Below, piece after piece: positions 12,234 to 41,256 of a stretch of 64,000 bases of DNA. The DNA lies in contig NZ_CP043653.1 in NCBI RefSeq assembly GCF_014217685.1, positions 2,174,419 to 2,238,418 on the forward strand, given 5' to 3'. Every line of letters begins with the position of its first letter. The first letter of the stretch is position 1. The notes under the pieces are model-generated. The model ran no database searches, was not told where the DNA came from, and saw only the letters and a program-made list of their open reading frames with translations. This stretch comes from Glaciihabitans sp. INWT7 (GTDB taxonomy: Bacteria; Actinomycetota; Actinomycetes; Actinomycetales; Microbacteriaceae). The translations under genes were made by a program, and so were the position numbers.

Positions 12234-12273
12234 GGCTGGCCTTCGAAGTGAGAGTGGAGGGGTTCATTCACCC

Positions 12274-12279
12274 TACGCT
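12274..12279 (+). promoter_or_regulatory. leaderless -10 box of phosphopantetheinyl transferase gene
   Basis: TACGCT at 12274-12279 ends six bases before the GTG at 12286, supporting that start. A second possible start, GTG 12313, has GGAG eight bases upstream. Confidence 0.4.
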
Positions 12280-12285
12280 CGGGTT

Positions 12286-12888
12286 GTGCGACTACTTCAG
12301 GGAGTGAACGACGTGCGCGTCGGCATCCATCCCTCGACCGGCGACCGGATGCGCGACCGCGACATCCTGGCTGCCGCCGTCTCTGCTGCGGTGCCCGGAC
12401 TCGGTGCCGCGACCCTCAGCCGGCGCTGCGCCGATTGCTGCGGCGATCACGGACAGCCCCGGGTCGCCGGGGACCTGGCGTGGGCGAGCCTTGCGCGGGC
12501 CGGCGGATTCCTCGCTGTAGCCGTCAGCACCGTCGGTCCGGTCGGAATCGACCTTGAGGACCCCGCGGCGGTGGCTAGGGCGCCACTCGATGCGTTCACT
12601 GCAGAGGAGCTGCGGTTCATCCGCGGCGGGGCGGATGCGGCACGCACCGCGACAGAGTTCTGGACGGCCAAGGAGGCGATCCTGAAGGCCGATGGACGCG
12701 GGTTGCGGTGTGATCCCCGCGACCTGCAACTGGGGGGCGACCCTCTTCGCCTGGTGGCCTGGCCCGAGTGCCCGATCGCGCTCACCGCCGTGAGGCTCGA
12801 TGGTTTCGATGGGCCGAACGGGCTCGTCGGCGCGGTCGCGACCTTCAGGCGAGGCGGGGAAGGGCCTTCGAATACACCCAGCGGTTGA
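12286..12888 (+). CDS. 4'-phosphopantetheinyl transferase
   Basis: About 200 residues. The diagnostic motifs are VGPVGIDLED (magnesium-binding Asp) and EFWTAKEAILKADGRG (the KE...K signature). The enzyme transfers phosphopantetheine from CoA to the carrier-domain serine of a synthase. It is convergent with the M1 peptidase and its last 44 bases overlap that gene's end. Placed at the end of the Pls-type synthetase locus, it is the obvious candidate to prime that enzyme's carrier domain. The start is GTG 12286 (leaderless promoter) or GTG 12313 (ribosome binding site). Confidence 0.88.
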   Translation: MRLLQGVNDVRVGIHPSTGDRMRDRDILAAAVSAAVPGLGAATLSRRCADCCGDHGQPRVAGDLAWASLARAGGFLAVAVSTVGPVGIDLEDPAAVARAPLDAFTAEELRFIRGGADAARTATEFWTAKEAILKADGRGLRCDPRDLQLGGDPLRLVAWPECPIALTAVRLDGFDGPNGLVGAVATFRRGGEGPSNTPSG

Positions 12889-14173
12889 TGATGCCCTCGA
12901 TCGCCGTCGAATGGCTCAACTCCGCGAAAGTGTCGATGACGTCGGAGGGCATGATGTGCCCGAATCGCAAGCGTGACCCGAGGTCGCGCAAGGAGTCGAA
13001 AAAGGCCTCGTCCCCGATCGCTCGGCGCACCACATGGAGGGCGAGCGCCCCGCGCTTGTAGACCCGATCGTCGAAGAGGAGCTTCGTGCCCGGATCTCCG
13101 ACGACGATGTCCTTGGACTGGTCGTTCACCAGGTCCCAGTGCGAACGGGCGCACTCGGAGGCGGTGGGGCCGCCGCTGGCCTCCGACCACAGCCACTCCG
13201 CGTAGCAGGCGAATCCCTCGTGAAGCCAGATGTCTTTCCAGCGGTTCACGGTGAGGGAGTTGCCGAACCACTGGTGGGCGAGTTCGTGGGCGATGAGCCG
13301 GTCGCAGCCATGGGTGCCGTCGATGTGATTGCGGCCGAAGATGGCGAGTCCGTGAGCTTCGAGCGGGATCTCCAGCTCATCCGCTGTCACGATCACGCCG
13401 TAGGCGGGGAAGGGGTATGGCCCGAATCTGTCTGAGAACAGCGCGATCATCTCCCCGAGTCGGCTGAAGTCCTCGGTGACCTCTGTGCTCAGGGCGCTCG
13501 GATAGGAGATGGTGGTCGGCACCCCGGCATCCACCGCAAGAGCGCGGTAGCGCCCGATCTGCACGGTCGCGAGGTAGGTGGCCATCGGCTCCGCCACCTC
13601 GAACTCCCAGCGCGCGCGACCGGCGCGACTGGTGCGGGAGACCTGCTCGCCGTTGGAGATCACCTGGTACACCGACTCGCACGACACCACGATGCGGAAT
13701 CTCGCCTTATTGCTCGGGTGGTCGTTGCAGGGAAACCACGATGATGCCCCGTTCGGCTGGCTCGCCACGAGTGCGCCGTCGGCGAGCTCCTCCCAGCCGA
13801 CCTCACCCCACTCCGAACGGATCGGATGCGGTGCGCCCCGGTAGCGCACCGTCACGGTGAACTCCTCCCCCGCGGTGATCGCCGCAAGCGGGGTGATCAC
13901 GAGTTTGCGTGCGGTCTGCGTGACCTTGCGGGGGCGTTCGCCCCCGATGGTGACCTTCTCCACGACCAGCCCGGCGAGGTCGAGGCTGAAACGATCGAGG
14001 TCTTCCGTGGCCCGGGCGGAGATGACGGTGCTGGCGATCAGCCGGTTCGTCTCGACGCGATAGTCGAGATCGATGTCGTAGCGATCGACGAGGTAGCCGC
14101 CGTTTCCGCTCGCGGGCAGGTAGTCGTCGCCCGCGGAGGGGGAACCGAGGGACGGGCGCGAAGTCTGGGGCAT
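12845..14173 (-). CDS. M1 family zinc metallopeptidase, short form
   Basis: 442 residues: beta-sandwich N-domain then thermolysin-like catalytic domain. The zinc site is HELAH (residues 296-300) with E319 in WLHEGFACYAEW. The usual GxMEN substrate motif is replaced by EIPLEAHGLAIF, and the long C-terminal helical domain of aminopeptidase N is missing, so specificity may differ from the classic enzymes. The ATG overlaps the stop of the Pls-type synthetase (TGATG), so the two are coupled. It probably trims or degrades the product of that synthetase, or protects the cell from it; this is inferred from context only. Confidence 0.88.
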   Translation of the reverse strand: MPQTSRPSLGSPSAGDDYLPASGNGGYLVDRYDIDLDYRVETNRLIASTVISARATEDLDRFSLDLAGLVVEKVTIGGERPRKVTQTARKLVITPLAAITAGEEFTVTVRYRGAPHPIRSEWGEVGWEELADGALVASQPNGASSWFPCNDHPSNKARFRIVVSCESVYQVISNGEQVSRTSRAGRARWEFEVAEPMATYLATVQIGRYRALAVDAGVPTTISYPSALSTEVTEDFSRLGEMIALFSDRFGPYPFPAYGVIVTADELEIPLEAHGLAIFGRNHIDGTHGCDRLIAHELAHQWFGNSLTVNRWKDIWLHEGFACYAEWLWSEASGGPTASECARSHWDLVNDQSKDIVVGDPGTKLLFDDRVYKRGALALHVVRRAIGDEAFFDSLRDLGSRLRFGHIMPSDVIDTFAELSHSTAIEGIINRWVYSKALPRLA

Positions 14174-17100
14174 CAGTGCGCTCCAGTATTCCACGGCGCA
14201 GAAAGCGATGACTCCCAGGGCGCAATCGGGTTGCCAGACCACAGGGTGCCCTCCGGCACCCGTTCCCCTCTCATGACCAGGGATGCAGGCCCGACTGTCG
14301 CCCTCCGGTCGATGGATGCTGCGGGCAGGATCACGCTGTGCGGTCCGAGAGTCGATCCTTCGGCGAGGTTCACGGAGTCGAGTTGCATGATGCGGTCGTG
14401 GAAGAGGTGGGTCTGCACGACGCATCCGCGATTCACGGTGGAGCCGTCGCCGAGGGCGACGAGGTCGGCCTCTGGCAGCCAATAGGACTCGCACCAGACC
14501 CCCCTGCCGATCGAGGCTCCCAACGTGCGCAGCCACACGGCGAGCGCCGGCGTGCCGGCGGCGCTCGCGGCGAACCACGGCCGAGCCACCATCTCGACGA
14601 AGGTGTCGGAGACCTCGTTGCGCCACACGAACGTCGACCAGAGCGGATGCTCCCGGGCGGCGATCCTGCCGGCGAAGGCCCACTTCGCCGCGGTCGTGAT
14701 GCCGGCGGCCACCGCCCCGGCGAGCAGCAGCACCACGCCGGAGAGCAGGATCGCGGCACCGACACCGACGGCGAGCCACAGCCCCTCGAGCGCCCCGAGC
14801 ACGGCGAGCGCGATCCAGGCGGTCACGAAGACGGGGACGATGCGCAGCACCTCCCAGGCGGCACGCGCGATCCGCAGACGCAGCGGCGGCTCGAAGGTGC
14901 GCGCCTCGTCGATGTCGCTGACGGTGCGACGGAGGCGGGAGGGCGGGTTGCCCAGCCAGGACGATCCGCGTTTGGCCTTGCGCGGGGTCGCCGAGAGCAC
15001 GGCCACCAGCGCGTTGCGTGGCACGGAGCGACCGGGGCCCGTGATCCCACTGTTGCCGAGAAAGGCGCGGCGACCGATCTTCGCCCGGCCGATGCGCATC
15101 CAGCCGCCGCCCAGTTCGTAGGTGGCCACCATGGTGTCGTCGGCGAGGAATGCACCGGGGGCGATGGTGGTGAGCCGCGGGATCAGCAGCACCGTGGATG
15201 CCTCGACGCCCGCGCCGACGGTGGCACCGAGCATGCGCAGCCAGACCGGGGTGAAGAGGCTCGCGTAGAGCGGGAAGAGCAGCGTCCGTGCGCTGTCCAG
15301 AAGTCGCTCCGTGCTCCACGCCTGCCAGCCGACACGGCTGCGCACGGGATGGTGCCCTCCGTCAGTCCGAGCCCCAAGAGCCGCACCGCCACGACGACGA
15401 GTGCGGCGTAAGCCAGTCCCGCCACGATCACCGCCAGCGGAACGGCGAGCGCCCCGCGGCCGAGCGCCTCTCCGATGCTGACCGCCGCACCGATGGCCGC
15501 GCCGACGACGAGCGCCCCGAGAGCGACCGCGACCGCGGGGATGGCCGAGAGGGCGAGCGAGCCGAGTGCGTAGACGACCAGCCACCGCGTGCCTCTCGGA
15601 GGGCGCGACGGCGGCCAGGCGTGCCGGGCGGAGCCGACCCGTTCTGCCGGGGATCCCGCCCATCTCTCCCCCGCGGGAACACGGCTCGAGACCGCGGCCC
15701 CCGCCTCGATCTCGGCGCCGCCCCCCACGCTGGCACCGCCGAGCATCGTGCTTCGCGTGCCGATGACGGCTCCCGCCCCGATGTGGACGGCACCGAGACG
15801 CAGGATGTCGCCGTCGACCCAGTACCCCGAGAGATCCACCTCGGGTTCGATGGCCGCCCGCGGCCCGATCGACAGCATGCCGGTGACGGGCGGAAGCGTG
15901 TGAAGATCGACACCCTCCCCGATCTTCGCGCCGAGCGCGCGGGCGTAATAACTGATCCAGGGCGCACCGGCGAGACTTGCTCCGCCCACGAGGTGCGCCA
16001 CCTGCTCGGCCAGCCAGAGGCGCAGGTGCACCGACCCGCCGCGCGGGTAGTCGCCCGGTCGCACACCGGCGAGCAGGAGGCGGGCAGCCACCACGGTGAC
16101 CGTCATCTTGCCGAGAGGTGAGACAAAGAGAACGAGCCCGGCGGCGATCCACCACCAGGAGAGAGTGGGCGCGAAACTCGCGCCGGTCAGGGCGTGGAGC
16201 AGATTGTTGGCCGCGGCGAGGTAGACCAGGTAGCGCATTCCCACCAGCGCGTGCAGAGGCACCCCGAGGATCGTCTGGACTACCTGGCTGCGCAGGGGGG
16301 TCGGCCCGACCGTTCGCAGCGTCTGCTTCTCAGACGGCGCTCGCGCGTCGAGTTCATCCGCGAGCGAGCCGATGCGCGGATGGTCGTAGATGTCCGACAC
16401 CCGCGTCTGCGGATACCGCACCCGGATGGCCGAGACCAGTTGCGCGGCAGTGAGGGACCCGCCGCCCTGAGCGAAGAAGTCGTCGTCTGAGCCCTGCACC
16501 GGCGTGCCGAGGATGGCCGACCATTGCCCCGCGATCCAGGCCGTGGTCTCCGAAAGAGTGCCGGCACGATCTCCGCTGACCGCGGGAAGGGGCCAGGGCA
16601 GCGCCGCCCGGTCCACCTTGCCGGAGGTGCGGGTGGGCAGGGAATCCACCACGGCGAGCAACGGCACGAGTGCCGCCGGAAGCTCGGCGCGCAGCAGTTC
16701 TGTCGCACCGGTCCGATCGAACTCCGTCGTACTGTCGGCGACGGCGAGGTAGCCCACCAACACGTGGTTGCCCGCGGGGGTCGTCTGCACGACGGCGGCG
16801 GCACCGGCCACTCCAGGGAGGCCCTGGAGCGCGGCATCGACCTCGCCGAGTTCGATGCGGCGACCCCCCAGCTTCACCTGGTCGTCCGCGCGCCCCACGA
16901 AGATCAGGCCGGCCGGGTCGTAGCGCACGAGATCGCCGCTCCGATAGGCCCGATCCCACCCGAGTTCGGTGAAGGGCGCATACTTCTCGGCGTCTTTGGC
17001 CGCATCGAGGTAGCGGGCGAGCCCGACCCCACCGATGATCAGTTCGCCGACCTCTCCGGCCGCGACCCGTGCGCCGGCCGAGTCGACGACCGCGAGATTC

Positions 17101-18140
17101 CAGCCGTCGAGCGGCAGGCCGATGCGAACCGGGCCGGCACCGTCGAGCAGTGAAGCGCAGGCGACCACCGTCGCTTCGGTGGGGCCGTAGGTGTTCCACA
17201 CCTCGCGTCCGCGGGAGACGATCCGGGAGACCAGCTCCGGCGGGCAGGCCTCACCCCCGAAGATGACCAGGCGCACGAGTTCGAGGGACTCCTCCGGCCA
17301 GAGGGCCGCGAGCGTGGGCACCGTGGAGACGATCGTGATGCCGTGCGCGATCAGCCAGGGGCCGAGGTCGACCCCCGAGCGCACCAGCGATCGCGGTGCC
17401 GGCACCAGGCAGGCTCCGTTGCGCCAGGCCAGCCACATCTCCTCGCACGAAGCGTCGAACGCCACGGAGAGGCCGGCGAGCACCCTGTCGCCGACCCCGA
17501 TCGGCTCGGCGGCGAGGAAGAGCCGGGCCTCCGCATCCACGAAGGCCGCCGCAGAGCGATGGGTGACCGCCACGCCCTTTGGTAGTCCGGTGGACCCCGA
17601 CGTGAAGATGACCCAGGCGTCGTCATCCGGTGTCGGCGGGTCGACCACGGTGAGCGTGCCGGTCTCGGGAGCGGGCGGCGGGCTCGCACTGAGCCCGCCC
17701 CTCGCTTCGCCGGCGGCGGCGAAGACACCGCCGGCGCCGATCACCCCCACCACCGCGGCCTCGGAGAACACGAGTTGCACCCGCCCCTCCGGATCGTCGG
17801 CGTCCACCGGCACATAAGACGCCCCCGCCGCCAGAGTCGCGAGAATCGAGACATACAGCTCGCGCGTGCCCGAGGGGATGCGGATGCCCACTCGGTCGCC
17901 CCGCGTCACGCCGAGCGCGATCAGCTGCGCCGCCTGCGCGTTCACCAGTCGCACGAGCCGCCGGTAGCTGATCGCGCCGAAAGGATCCTCCAGCGCGAGA
18001 GCGTCCGGTGTCGCTGCCGCCGTCGCCACCAGAATGTCGATCAGTGTGCGTGGCGGAGTCCTCCGATCGCCCGCGAGAAGAGGGGACTGCCGAGGACTGG
18101 GTTCGGGACGATTGGGCGTGTCGTCCGATTGGGGCGTCAC
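14173..18140 (-). pseudogene. Pls/PosA-type non-ribosomal peptide synthetase, frameshifted
   Basis: Intact, this would be about 1320 residues in the Pls order. Adenylation domain: VIFTSGSTGLPKGVAVTH, FDASCEEMW, NTYGPTEATV, YRSGDLVRYD, GRADDQVKLGGRRIELGE, TRTSGKVDRAALP. Carrier domain: DDDFFAQGGGSLTAAQL. Then transmembrane helices alternating with three hexapeptide-repeat (left-handed beta-helix) domains. There is no condensation or thioesterase domain. Such enzymes, e.g. epsilon-poly-lysine synthetase, polymerise one amino acid at the membrane. The frame from GTG 18140 (GGAGGA just upstream; ATG 18191 is an alternative) runs to a stop at 15183. Its homology ends after LGLGLTEG near 15354 and resumes one frame over with HHPVRSRVGW, continuing to 14173. 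One base is missing. Confidence 0.85.
15352..15357 (-). other. single-base deletion site in Pls-type synthetase
   Basis: After codons for Glu (15359-15357) only two bases, GG, remain before the CAC CAT CCC GTG codons of the conserved continuation. One inserted base restores a single frame of about 1320 residues. The site is a GGAGGG run. Confidence 0.8.
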
Positions 18141-18269
18141 TCGTCCTCCAAGGCTCTGGTCGGTAGGCGGGGCCAGCCGAGGTTGCCCCATCGTCGCAGA
18201 CGGTATTGCGTCGTGGTGACCAGCAGGTGAACATCCCGATCACCAGAGGCGTGCCCGGAGAGCTGGCGC

Positions 18270-18311
18270 AACCGCGGTCACGGCGGTTTTTTGGCTGATC
18301 GTCGACCGCCG
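18270..18311 (+). promoter_or_regulatory. possible attenuator in polysialyltransferase-like gene leader
   Basis: AACCGC (18270-18275) and GCGGTT (18283-18288) form a stem followed by T residues to 18292, a terminator pointing towards the gene at 18399. CGGCGG (18281-18286) can instead pair with CCGCCG (18306-18311), which would undo the terminator. No gene ends just upstream on this strand, so it is either an attenuator or the end of a short RNA. Confidence 0.35.
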
Positions 18312-18398
18312 TTAAGCTGTGCGCCACCCGCAGCGGCGAGGCTGGGACCATGATCGCGATCCCGCTGATGCCCGGCCTCGGCTTGACGAGGGGCCGTG

Positions 18399-19322
18399 AT
18401 GCGCTCGGCTGAGTCCGCGCAGTCCCCCGCCGTCGCCTGGGTCGAGTCTCCGCTGCAGTTGGTCGCCGCCGCAGAGTGGGCCGAGACCCAACCGCACCGC
18501 ATCGTCGTGGCCCTGCGCGTGACGAGCCCGCAGATGCCGGCGACGGCCGCAGAGCTCCTTTCGCGGGGTGCCCGGTTCGGCGAGTGCGTGCCGTTCTTCG
18601 GCATCCCGTGGCAGTTGCTCTCCCGCCACCGCTCCTGGGCAGTGGGTGACGCCTTCTCCGGCCAGTTCCGACTCGCCTCCGCTGTGCGCCCGCCGCTCTC
18701 CCTCACTCTTCTCGACGACGGATCCCAGGCCAGCGCGATCGTCGACGCCCTCGTCGGTCGCACCAGCTTCGCGCGCCCGCACCAGCGCGAGTCGACCGCA
18801 CTCACCACTCTCGGCATCCTGGCTCGCGACCGGATGCTCGCGCTCGCAGCGCGCGACCGCCTCGAGATCGCCACCGCCTTCGAGTTCGGCGCGGTGCGCA
18901 CCGTGCTGCTGAGCGACCAGCGCATCCCCGTCACCTCGCATCGTTTCGACTGGGTGCGTCGCACCGCGCGGCCGATCGCCGTTCCCGGCAACCGCGTGCT
19001 GCTCGGCAGCGCCCTGCCCACGGACGGACGGATGCCGGTGGACCGCTACCTGCGCTGGGTGCGGTCTGAGGCGGCCGACTCCCCCCTCATCTATCTGCCT
19101 CATCGTCGGGAGACCGCTGCGGTCCGTGACGCGGTGGCCGCCATCGCTGGCGTGCGCGTCTTCGACTCCGGCTTGCCGGTCGAGCTGGTACTCGCCGGCG
19201 CGCAGGAGCCGCTAGAGGTCATCACCCTTCCGACGAGCGCGCGCACCACGCTCACCCACGTTCTCGAGGGCACCGGCAGCAGCATCCGCACGCGCTCCCT
19301 GCACCGCGAATCGATCCGATGA
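18399..19322 (+). CDS. polysialyltransferase-like (GT52-type) protein
   Basis: 307 residues. Three features match the bacterial polysialyltransferase/GT52 fold: the opening AVAWVESPLQLVAAAEW (ESPLQ motif), the late LIYLPHRRE motif (compare YxPHPRE), and a final LPVELVLAG...TLPTSARTTL, where these enzymes carry a PxE and an S/T-rich segment. Overall similarity is low, and the donor and acceptor are unknown. No signal peptide. GAGG lies seven bases before ATG 18399. The TGA overlaps the ATG of the next small gene. Divergent from the Pls-type locus. It could alternatively be a non-catalytic relative. Confidence 0.55.
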   Translation: MRSAESAQSPAVAWVESPLQLVAAAEWAETQPHRIVVALRVTSPQMPATAAELLSRGARFGECVPFFGIPWQLLSRHRSWAVGDAFSGQFRLASAVRPPLSLTLLDDGSQASAIVDALVGRTSFARPHQRESTALTTLGILARDRMLALAARDRLEIATAFEFGAVRTVLLSDQRIPVTSHRFDWVRRTARPIAVPGNRVLLGSALPTDGRMPVDRYLRWVRSEAADSPLIYLPHRRETAAVRDAVAAIAGVRVFDSGLPVELVLAGAQEPLEVITLPTSARTTLTHVLEGTGSSIRTRSLHRESIR

Positions 19323-20846: not shown

Positions 20847-22328
20847 ATGACCAGCACCGTCTCCACCGAATCCGCCGCAGTCCACGACGAGCCTGCTTCC
20901 GCTCTCGGAGCCCGCAATCGCCTCGTGATCTTCCTGCTGTTGATCTCCGTGTTCGTCATGATCCTCAACGAGACGATCATGGGGGTCGCGCTTCCCACGC
21001 TCACCAAGGACCTCGGCATCACCCCGAGCGCTGCACAGTGGCTCACGGCGGCGTTCCTGCTCACGATGGCCGTCATCATCCCGATCACGGGCTTCCTGCT
21101 TCAGCGCTTTCACACCAGACCGCTCTTCATCGCGGCCATGGGGCTCTTCACACTCGGCACGCTGATCGCGGCGGTCGCTCCCGGTTTCGAAATCCTGCTC
21201 GTCGCCCGCATCGTGCAGGCGAGCGGAACCGCGATCATGTTCCCGCTGCTGATGACCACCGTGATGAGCCTGGTCCCCGCTGCCACCCGTGGCCAGATGA
21301 TGGGCAACATCTCGATCGTCATCTCTGTCGCGCCGGCCATCGGACCCACGATCTCGGGCCTCATCCTCAGCGTGCTCGACTGGCGGTTCATGTTCATCCT
21401 GGTGCTGCCGATCGCGATCGCGGCCCTCATCGTCGGCGCGAGCCTCATCACCAATGTGACCGAACCGGCTGCCACCCGCATCGACCTTCTCTCGGTATTG
21501 CTCTCCGCCCTCGGTTTCGGCGGGCTGGTCTTCGGCCTCAGCAATCTCGGCACCGCGACCACCCCGCTCGAGACCTGGCTGCCGCTGGCCATCGGCGCTG
21601 CCGCGCTCGCCAGCTTCATCCTGCGCCAAGTGCGCCTTCAGCGGAGCAACCGTGCGCTGCTCGACCTTCGCACGTTCAAGACCCGCGACTTCACGTTCTC
21701 GATCGTGATGTTCGCGATCAGCATGATGGCCATGTTCGGCGCCATCGTGCTGTTGCCGTTCTATCTCGTCGGGGTGCTGCACGTGCCGGTGATCACCGTC
21801 GGCCTGCTCTTGCTTCCGGGAGGCCTCATCATGGGCCTCCTCGCCCCCATCGTCGGCCGCATCTACGATCGCGTCGGCCCGACCGTGCTGCTCATCGTTG
21901 GTTCCAGCATCGTGAGTGGCGACCTCTGGGCGATGAGGATGCTCGACGAGAACAGCTCTTTCCTCTGGGTGCTCGCGGCCCATGTCGCGCTGAGCATCGG
22001 CCTTGCGCTGCTCTTCACTCCCCTGTTCACCGCGAGTCTCGGCTCTCTCAAGCCGGAGTTGTACTCGCACGGCAGCGCCATCGTCGGCACCGTGCAACAG
22101 CTCGCCGGGGCGGCCGGAACCGCTCTCTTCGTGACGGTGATGTCCGCGCAGGCGGCCACGCTGATGGCAGCCGGCGCGTCCTCGGAGTCGGCGACCGCGT
22201 CCGGCATCCGCATCGCCTTCACCTATGGCGCCGTCATCTCGCTGTTCGCGATTCCCGCCGCTTTCTTCGTGCGCAAGCAGCGCACCGATGAAAGCTCCGG
22301 CGCCCCCGCGCAGCTCGCCTCGCACTGA
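20847..22328 (+). CDS. DHA2-type MFS multidrug transporter
   Basis: 493 residues with fourteen predicted transmembrane segments. DHA2 drug:proton antiporter features: LNETIMGVALPTLTKDLGI in helix 1, QWLTAAFLLTMAVIIPITG in helix 2, and the antiporter motif region APAIGPTISGLIL in helix 5. The closest relatives by appearance are LmrB/Mdr-like efflux pumps. The start is ATG 20847, since the upstream part of the open frame is low-complexity and non-coding in appearance. No regulator gene is adjacent. A hairpin follows the stop. Confidence 0.9.
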   Translation: MTSTVSTESAAVHDEPASALGARNRLVIFLLLISVFVMILNETIMGVALPTLTKDLGITPSAAQWLTAAFLLTMAVIIPITGFLLQRFHTRPLFIAAMGLFTLGTLIAAVAPGFEILLVARIVQASGTAIMFPLLMTTVMSLVPAATRGQMMGNISIVISVAPAIGPTISGLILSVLDWRFMFILVLPIAIAALIVGASLITNVTEPAATRIDLLSVLLSALGFGGLVFGLSNLGTATTPLETWLPLAIGAAALASFILRQVRLQRSNRALLDLRTFKTRDFTFSIVMFAISMMAMFGAIVLLPFYLVGVLHVPVITVGLLLLPGGLIMGLLAPIVGRIYDRVGPTVLLIVGSSIVSGDLWAMRMLDENSSFLWVLAAHVALSIGLALLFTPLFTASLGSLKPELYSHGSAIVGTVQQLAGAAGTALFVTVMSAQAATLMAAGASSESATASGIRIAFTYGAVISLFAIPAAFFVRKQRTDESSGAPAQLASH

Positions 22329-39875: not shown

Positions 39876-41256
39876 GTGACGGCCGACCCGGATGCCTACA
39901 GAGAGCCCCTCGAGCGCGCCCATGCCCATGCCAGGGAATGGCTCGAATCCATCCCCACCCGACCGGTACCTCCGCGGCTGACGGCCGATCAGGTGGCTGC
40001 GAACCTGGCCCGGCCCCTCGCCGAGCACGGTCGAGATGCAGCCGAGGTCGTCGATTCACTCTCCGCGATAGTCGAGCCCGGCCTGATGGCAGTGCCCTCC
40101 GGTCGATTCTTCGGTTGGGTCATGGGCGGCACGCTCCCCTCGGCGATGGCGGCCGACTGGCTCGTGAGCGCCTGGGACCAGAACGCCGGGATGCGCTTCG
40201 CCACCCCGGGTGTGGCCGCGATCGAGGAGGCAGCCGGTGCCGAGCTCCTCGACCTGCTCGGACTCCCGGCCGGGTCGGATGTCGGATTCACGACCGGGGG
40301 CACCACGGCAAATTTCGTGGGAATCGCCGCCGGGCGCCAGCACGTGCTCGACCGCGTCGGCTGGAATCTCTCGGAGGACGGGCTGAGCGGCGCACCGCGG
40401 ATCGCCGTCTTCGCCGGACGTGAGCGACACGCCTCGGTCGATCTCGCCCTGCGCTACCTCGGCCTCGGACTGCCGATCGAGGTGGATGCCGACCGCGAGG
40501 GACGCATCATCCCCGCGGCTCTCGCCGAAGCGATGCGCGACGTCGACGGGCCGGCGATCCTCTGCCTTCAGGCCGGCAACCTGCACTCCGGCGCCTTCGA
40601 CCCGATGCGCGAGACGATCGAGATCGCGCATCACCATGGTGCGTGGGTACACGTGGACGGCGCCTTCGGACTGTGGGCTGCGGCGAGTCCGCTCTATCGC
40701 ACGCACCTCGACGGTCTCGAAACTGCTGATTCCTGGGCGACGGATGCGCACAAGACTCTCAATGTGCCCTACGACTGTGGAATCGCGGCCGTCGCCCATC
40801 CGGAAGCGGTGAGATCGGCCTTCGCTGTGCACACCAGCTATCTCATCAATGCCACCGAGGGTCCGGGCGACCCCTTCGACAAGGTGCCGGAGCTGTCTCG
40901 CCGGGCGCGGGGGGGTTCCGGTGTGGGCCGCCCTGCAGGAGCTCGGACGCGCGGGGGTGATTGCGCTCGTCGAGCGTCTCGCCGCGAACGCCCGCGCTCT
41001 CGCCGAGGGCCTCTCGTCTCTCCCCGGTGTCGAGGTGCTCAATGATGTCGTCTTCACGCAGGTGAGCCTCGCCTTCGGGGATGACGAGAACACCCGCCGG
41101 GTCACCAAGAACCTCATCGCCGATGGTGCGGTCTGGATGAGCGGATCGCGGTGGCAGGACCGCGACATCCTGCGGATCTCGGTGAGCAACTGGTCGACGG
41201 ATGACGCGGACCTGGCCATCGCGATCGACGCGGTGCGACGGGCGATGGCCGGCTAG
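39876..41256 (+). pseudogene. PLP-dependent group II decarboxylase, frameshifted
   Basis: Intact, about 459 residues. Pyridoxal-phosphate enzyme of the group II (aromatic/2,4-diaminobutyrate decarboxylase-like) family: FTTGGTTANFVGIAAGR, HVDGAFGLWAA and the PLP lysine in ATDAHKTLNVPYDCG. The frame from GTG 39876 is homologous up to ELSRRARG and then goes astray to a stop at 41045. The family sequence continues one frame over with VPVWAALQELGRAGV to 41256. The shift lies in a run of seven Gs (40909-40915); six Gs would restore the gene. It could be a real mutation, a reversible tract or a read error. Substrate not assigned. Confidence 0.82.
40909..40915 (+). other. G7 tract causing frameshift in PLP decarboxylase
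   Basis: Seven consecutive Gs where six would keep the conserved frame (RRARG-VPVW). An extra base is the simplest reading. Confidence 0.8.

Follow-up and report, generated by a model that had tools for sequence, protein, structure and literature searches.

The DNA analysed here, a 64,000-nucleotide stretch that we call the window, carries a synthetase gene beside genes for an M1 peptidase and a phosphopantetheinyl transferase (PPTase), and raises the question of which polymer such a group of genes would make and whether the synthetase could make it as sequenced. An earlier note had read the locus as a Pls-type poly-amino-acid synthetase with a peptidase that degrades its product, and as a family assignment this was right. 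The locus is an epsilon-poly-L-lysine (e-PL) synthetase operon, pls–pldII, joined by a convergent PPTase gene (Table 1). e-PL is a natural antimicrobial, and the gene pair for its synthesis and breakdown is widespread in actinobacteria. The locus is of a known kind, as this type of operon has already been described in the literature (PMC8117764, PMC9223678, PMC4361855), and what is new lies in small details: a break in the pls reading frame, a corrected peptidase motif, a three-gene islet and a PPTase neighbour restricted to certain families. The host genome is from the genus that includes Lacisediminihabitans profunda (Microbacteriaceae) and whose type species was described as an isolate from freshwater sediment (PMC7033078).

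Table 1. Features of the pls locus, in window coordinates
Feature	Position	Strand	Details
pls, e-PL synthetase gene, broken frame	14173..18140	-	GTG 18140, TGA 14175-14173; TIGR02353 pieces over both frames
pls 5' part: A domain, carrier domain, TM1-4, C1	15183..18140	-	985 aa, frame-shifted stop at 15183
Frame break	15345..15360	-	lacks one base present in intact relatives; follows directly on the predicted fourth long membrane helix
pls 3' part, second frame: C2, TM5-6, C3	14173..15357	-	394 aa, TIGR02353 positions 310-695
M1 metallopeptidase, PldII-like	12845..14173	-	442 aa; HELAHQWFG, WLHEGFACY, IPLEAHG; ATG overlaps the pls stop
Sfp-type phosphopantetheinyl transferase	12286..12888	+	200 aa, convergent with the M1 gene; PF01648
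Islet, approximate limits	12240..18280	.	absent at the syntenic site in G012 (G003: weaker right-hand match)

Domains, substrate and partner enzymes

The Pfam matches in the 5' part of pls were limited to PF00501 and PF00550, in agreement with the adenylation and carrier domains noted earlier, and its domain layout was assigned by analogy with a structural model of the intact L. profunda protein (L069). No Pfam family matched the 3' part (C2-C3), and neither part gave a thioesterase-type Pfam match. The Pls/PosA family model of NCBIfam, TIGR02353, matches pls above its cut-off in two pieces (1-313 and 310-695), and a GGAGG resembling a ribosome-binding site precedes the GTG start codon. The absence of a condensation domain, also noted earlier, extends to the whole genome (no PF00668 match at E <= 0.001). 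A condensation domain encoded near pls in relatives, which the earlier note would have taken as evidence against its reading, was found neither in the window genome nor close to pls in 13 pls-bearing relatives; 11 of these have none at all, and those of the other two (G044 and G047) lie on another contig or 240 kb away. A condensation domain was consequently rejected as the polymerizing partner.

The six transmembrane helices and three hexapeptide-type domains of the terminal region are all encoded in the window, but not in one polypeptide. The earlier claim of three hexapeptide-repeat domains is borne out in the model of the close relative L069, in which the terminal domain forms a single polypeptide, but the window protein itself is divided between two frames. 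The L069 model (residues 575-1300) had a pLDDT of 82.2 and a pTM of 0.86, and, at an E cut-off of 0.001, a Foldseek search with it returned 89 PDB chains, hexapeptide acyltransferases first; among the best 50 of these 89 chains the matches were partial, with TM scores of 0.15 or less by query length and about 0.5 at best by target length. Sequence searches identified no solved structure for the terminal domain, only weak matches to hexapeptide proteins. A model with six membrane helices topped by three left-handed beta-helices of five turns each has already been published (PMC10522769), and our predicted fold is a confirmation of that model, not a new one.

The adenylation domain could be compared with that of Streptomyces albulus Pls (7wew), our source of S. 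albulus sequence, to which it is identical at 314 of 492 aligned residues (64%). The ten pocket residues, DAESIGTVVK, located in columns that we take to form the pocket from GrsA numbering, are all identical to those of 7wew. The comparison with a characterised Pls proposed in the earlier note thus ended in a match to an enzyme that makes a homopolymer. The same ten residues are common to all 92 relative rows (91 distinct, as L035 and L069 are one genome), of which 79 were retrieved by two peptide patterns (ASCEEMW and REVWNTYG) that already dictate some of the pocket residues, and 13 by a whole-protein search free of that selection. The latter 13 are matches of 55% identity or more, a limit below which fell a G046 match, full-length at 36%, and many weaker matches to adenylation domains. 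The string FDASCEEMW, singled out by the earlier note as deserving a specificity study, is present but not distinctive; it is an ordinary family motif, because the lysine-type pocket code is shared by all 92 rows. The pocket identity, together with the 64% identity over the domain, leads us to conclude that L-lysine is very probably the substrate. The wider Pls/PosA family does include enzymes that make other isopeptide polymers, from diaminobutyrate, diaminopropionate or ornithine, according to PMC10522769 and PMC8117764. That the window synthetase is one of them is unlikely in the extreme, as its pocket is that of a lysine Pls with Ala at position 2, the residue described as going with lysine, and not Met, which goes with ornithine, or Phe, which goes with shorter diamino acids (PMC10522769); moreover, a peptidase operon is a context unlike that of the three other synthetases compared in PMC8117764.

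The peptidase gene is coupled to pls as the earlier note had claimed, its ATG (14173-14171) overlapping the pls TGA (14175-14173) in the sequence TGATG, and PF01433 confirms the M1 family; the protein also contains PF17900. Its best solved relative is 6a8z, followed by ERAP1. Like the window protein, 6a8z is a short M1 zinc metallopeptidase (a 474-aa chain) without a long C-terminal part; we take it to be M1dr of Deinococcus and know of no link between it and Pls. The earlier reading of EAHG in place of the GxMEN exopeptidase motif arose from a misalignment: HMMER places IPLEAHG on GAMENWG of ERAP1, so that the Glu is retained and the Gly, Met and Asn are changed. This Glu is kept in all 92 M1 rows, window included, and IP[LIV]EA occurs in 83 of them. 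Conservation is likewise complete (92/92 rows) for the HExxH of HELAHQWFG and the Glu of WLHEGFACY, and the YKRGA of YKRGALALH is present in each of the rows listed for it, 86 of the 92. With the roles that these motifs, and the exopeptidase Glu, have in M1 peptidases, the protein thus fits an HEXXH-(18)-E zinc site with a catalytic Tyr. By eye, no obvious export signal was seen in the first 45 residues of the window protein, and no signal peptide in the 12 N-termini inspected.

The third gene was correctly recognized as a PPTase (PF01648, 42.8 bits against a cut-off of 25), but it is not coupled to the other two genes, since it lies on the opposite strand from pls and the M1 gene and therefore cannot be on the same transcript. 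The one other PF01648 match in the genome is an open frame of 131 aa, the size of AcpS, so the PPTase of the cassette is apparently the only one of Sfp type in this genome.

Interruption of the pls frame

The synthetase had been described as one open frame, which the sequence contradicts: the frame that opens at GTG 18140 stops at 15183, and the residues of C2-TM5-6-C3 go on in another frame of the same strand. Relative to the intact L035 protein, one window frame corresponds to residues 3-917 and the other to residues 905-1300. Nucleotide alignment with 8 relatives (the motif used to find the junction missed the other five of the 13 from the whole-protein search) revealed that the window has one base fewer near 15,350. 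The break separates A-T-C1 from C2-C3 and falls, in the L069 model, after the fourth long helix and before the second beta-helix. In all 13 relatives from the whole-protein search pls is one frame of 1290-1459 aa, and among the 93 loci that have such a frame only three have one below 1,200 aa, namely the window, L072 (Cryobacterium ruanii) and L131 (Tsukamurella sp. PLM1), each broken at a different place. These three loci serve as a warning that a pls gene in a public genome may have a broken frame.

Both halves of the gene are under similar purifying selection. For the window against L035, L036 and L066, dN/dS was 0.20, 0.16 and 0.20 in the 3' part and 0.19, 0.20 and 0.23 in the 5' part, and the control pairs L035-L036 and L035-L066 gave 0.16 and 0.27 (3') and 0.21 and 0.27 (5'). 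Decay of the 3' part was therefore not seen, its ratios being like those of the 5' part and of the intact controls. When the window was scanned for coding frame, 25 changes of frame on the same strand were flagged, in three of which the 5' frame stops more than 100 bases past the change: pls itself and sites at 25.7 kb and 40.9 kb. The first of the other two sites was dismissed, as it consists of two normal genes; at the second, a decarboxylase-like gene breaks in a run of 7 G. The latter gene (40086-41253, + strand, break near 40,910) was named by eye as PLP-dependent, and DNA matching it over about 1.1 kb occurs in 10 of 12 congeners. The one relative seen at its break site, L161, has a shorter G run there.

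We attribute the break to a recent lesion or to an error in the assembly. We consider it slightly better than an even chance that it is a sequencing or assembly error and that the pls operon of the strain is normal and functional. An error is slightly the more likely cause because a second gene in the 64-kb window, the decarboxylase-like one, also breaks, in its case at a 7-G run, and the dN/dS of C2-C3 (0.16-0.20, as compared to 0.19-0.23 for the N-terminal part and 0.16-0.27 for intact controls) and the location of the breaks of the two other records elsewhere in the gene are consistent with it. Against an error, no homopolymer of more than three bases lies at the pls break, and the genome, in 2 contigs, is 100% complete. 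The chance falls a little short of even that the break is instead real and recent, a natural null allele which leaves the strain with its degrading peptidase and PPTase intact and the synthetase lost. A recent break would show no decay, as observed, the M1 and PPTase frames are intact, and the patchy occurrence of the islet within the genus makes gain and loss look common; an indel of the sequencing-error type elsewhere in the same window argues the other way. The two frames meet at the very point where relatives read through in one, as would also be expected if programmed frameshifting joined them, but we reject such frameshifting as highly improbable, since the 13 relatives from the whole-protein search have a single uninterrupted frame, frames below 1,200 aa are confined to three of 93 loci with the other two breaks at other places, and no slippery run was seen at the break site.

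Gene order in relatives and the islet

A genome scan that reported at least 589 relatives supplied 80 loci for counts of gene order, and all of these but L071, a contig of 3 kb, have a pls frame (79 loci). The earlier note had asked whether the order PPTase-M1-Pls is conserved, and for pls and the M1 gene it is: an M1 gene lies downstream on the same strand as pls in 78 of the 79 listed loci (the one exception lies at the end of a contig) and in all 13 relatives from the whole-protein search. It starts within 200 nt of the end of the pls frame in 72 of the 79. The seven exceptions are L072 (frame-broken), L088 (contig end), L113, L119, L129, L131 and L137; the last five, from Tsukamurella and Williamsia, have a gap of 0.6-2.1 kb and no overlap, and L131 is the one among them with a broken pls. 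For the PPTase the order mostly holds in Microbacteriaceae and Micrococcaceae and fails in Mycobacteriales. Among the loci listed, with families assigned by genus name and a PPTase profile trained on hits from the same loci that it counted, a PPTase gene follows downstream in most Microbacteriaceae (25 of 30) and Micrococcaceae (11 of 13, convergent in 10), in none of 30 Mycobacteriales and in one of 6 other loci. It is nearby in 7 of the 13 whole-protein-search relatives, including one in which it lies upstream of the synthetase gene. In the available text of open-licence papers on Pls and PPTases we found no description of this neighbourhood. An actinobacterial-type pls-M1-PPTase locus was also seen in L092, recorded as Planococcus sp. 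APC 4015, with a Pls 62% identical to that of the window; the record name looks wrong for its content. A tree built from 39 of the 93 rows places the window together with G011 (82/87), within a group of nine Microbacteriaceae that has full support.

The three genes form an islet of about 6 kb that, as judged from flanking sequence, is absent at the same site in sister species. The flanks are 211 bp apart in G012 as compared to 6,057 bp in the window, and 162 bp apart in G003 as compared to 6,029, the right-hand match in G003 being weak (99 bases). In G006, G011, G004 and G008 the left flank is kept with no islet behind it, but with other differences. Within the genus, pls was found in 3 of 13 genomes (G000, G007 and G011), the other ten being 64-99% complete. 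The pls sequence of G007 is that of L069, the L. profunda record. In the 19-kb stretches compared, neither G007 nor G011 had a DNA match to the window beyond pls-M1, by which a chromosomal site shared with these pls-bearing congeners was rejected. The islet has a G+C content of 70.0%, against 67.5% for the rest of the window. When 270-base stretches at the two edges were compared, a single direct match of 9 bases came up, and inverted matches of at least this length were absent; with no clear edge repeats, we propose no mobile-element mechanism.

At the right edge lies a conserved gene (18396-19319, + strand) with 77% DNA identity in G012 and no Pfam or NCBIfam match. A DHA2-type efflux MFS gene (20847-22325, + strand) follows about 2.5 kb beyond the islet; we place it outside the locus, because matching DNA follows the pls-free site in congeners too.

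Proposed function and comparison with known systems

An e-PL locus is, with high confidence, the best overall explanation of these genes. Homologues are the guide to its product, polymerization, export, peptidase activity and PPTase-Pls pairing, and suggest the following route. The neighbouring Sfp-type PPTase would convert Pls to the holo form, the adenylation domain would activate L-lysine and load it on the carrier, and the membrane-embedded terminal domain, with its three left-handed beta-helices, would join lysines by isopeptide bonds between alpha-carboxyl and epsilon-amino groups, the chain probably being released outside the cell. The translationally coupled M1 enzyme would hydrolyse e-PL, and may thereby limit chain length and protect the producer. 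In S. albulus, PldII is reported to be located at the outer face of the membrane, and its repression to lengthen e-PL and lower tolerance; the enzyme is termed endo-type, yet cutting from the N-terminus is also described (PMC9223678). Three points weigh against the e-PL explanation. The synthetase frame is broken as sequenced, and a pls read in this way, interrupted before C2, would yield no polymer and would impair translation of the coupled M1 gene; the window M1 protein has no obvious export signal, in contrast to the outside location described for PldII (PMC9223678); and Corynebacterium variabile itself had no detectable e-PL under the published conditions in the available text of PMC8117764, so that the presence of pls is not the same as production.

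With this locus the antimicrobial pathway, which is in commercial use, gains a further genus of carriers. The islet also shows that synthetase, peptidase and PPTase are gained or lost jointly, as a unit of about 6 kb that is handy for heterologous production. If the break is genuine, the strain keeps the e-PL peptidase and PPTase of the islet and could cleave the polymer of neighbouring producers. It is a doubtful, speculative extension that the strain is a natural 'degrader without synthetase' beside e-PL producers and that e-PL synthesis in Microbacteriaceae and Micrococcaceae would be a self-contained cassette with its own PPTase.

Among known systems, PosA, the delta-poly-L-ornithine synthetase of Acinetobacter, has the same architecture of adenylation, carrier and terminal domains (TIGR02353), but differs from the window Pls in having Met at pocket position 2 and, as described in PMC10522769, a single-gene operon. 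Closer are the actinobacterial pls genes of C. variabile and Microbacterium, with pockets reported as identical or very similar to those of confirmed Pls enzymes. The C. variabile Pls, which has a peptidase in its operon as in the window, makes e-PL in S. coelicolor, and Microbacterium, of the same family as the window genome, is listed among the pls carriers (PMC8117764). Compared with both, the window represents a new genus and a new islet position, and the words phosphopantetheinyl transferase occur 0 times in the text of PMC8117764. The domain order of the window synthetase is that of S. albulus as described in the same paper, and the S. albulus pls-pldII pair further resembles the window in its pocket code, in the 64% identity of the adenylation domain and in the overlap of the pls stop with the start of a degrading peptidase, although this overlap is of 4 bp within one operon in S. 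albulus (PMC4361855) and of 1 base in the window. Unlike the S. albulus pair, the window has a frame-broken pls and an adjoining, convergent PPTase gene.
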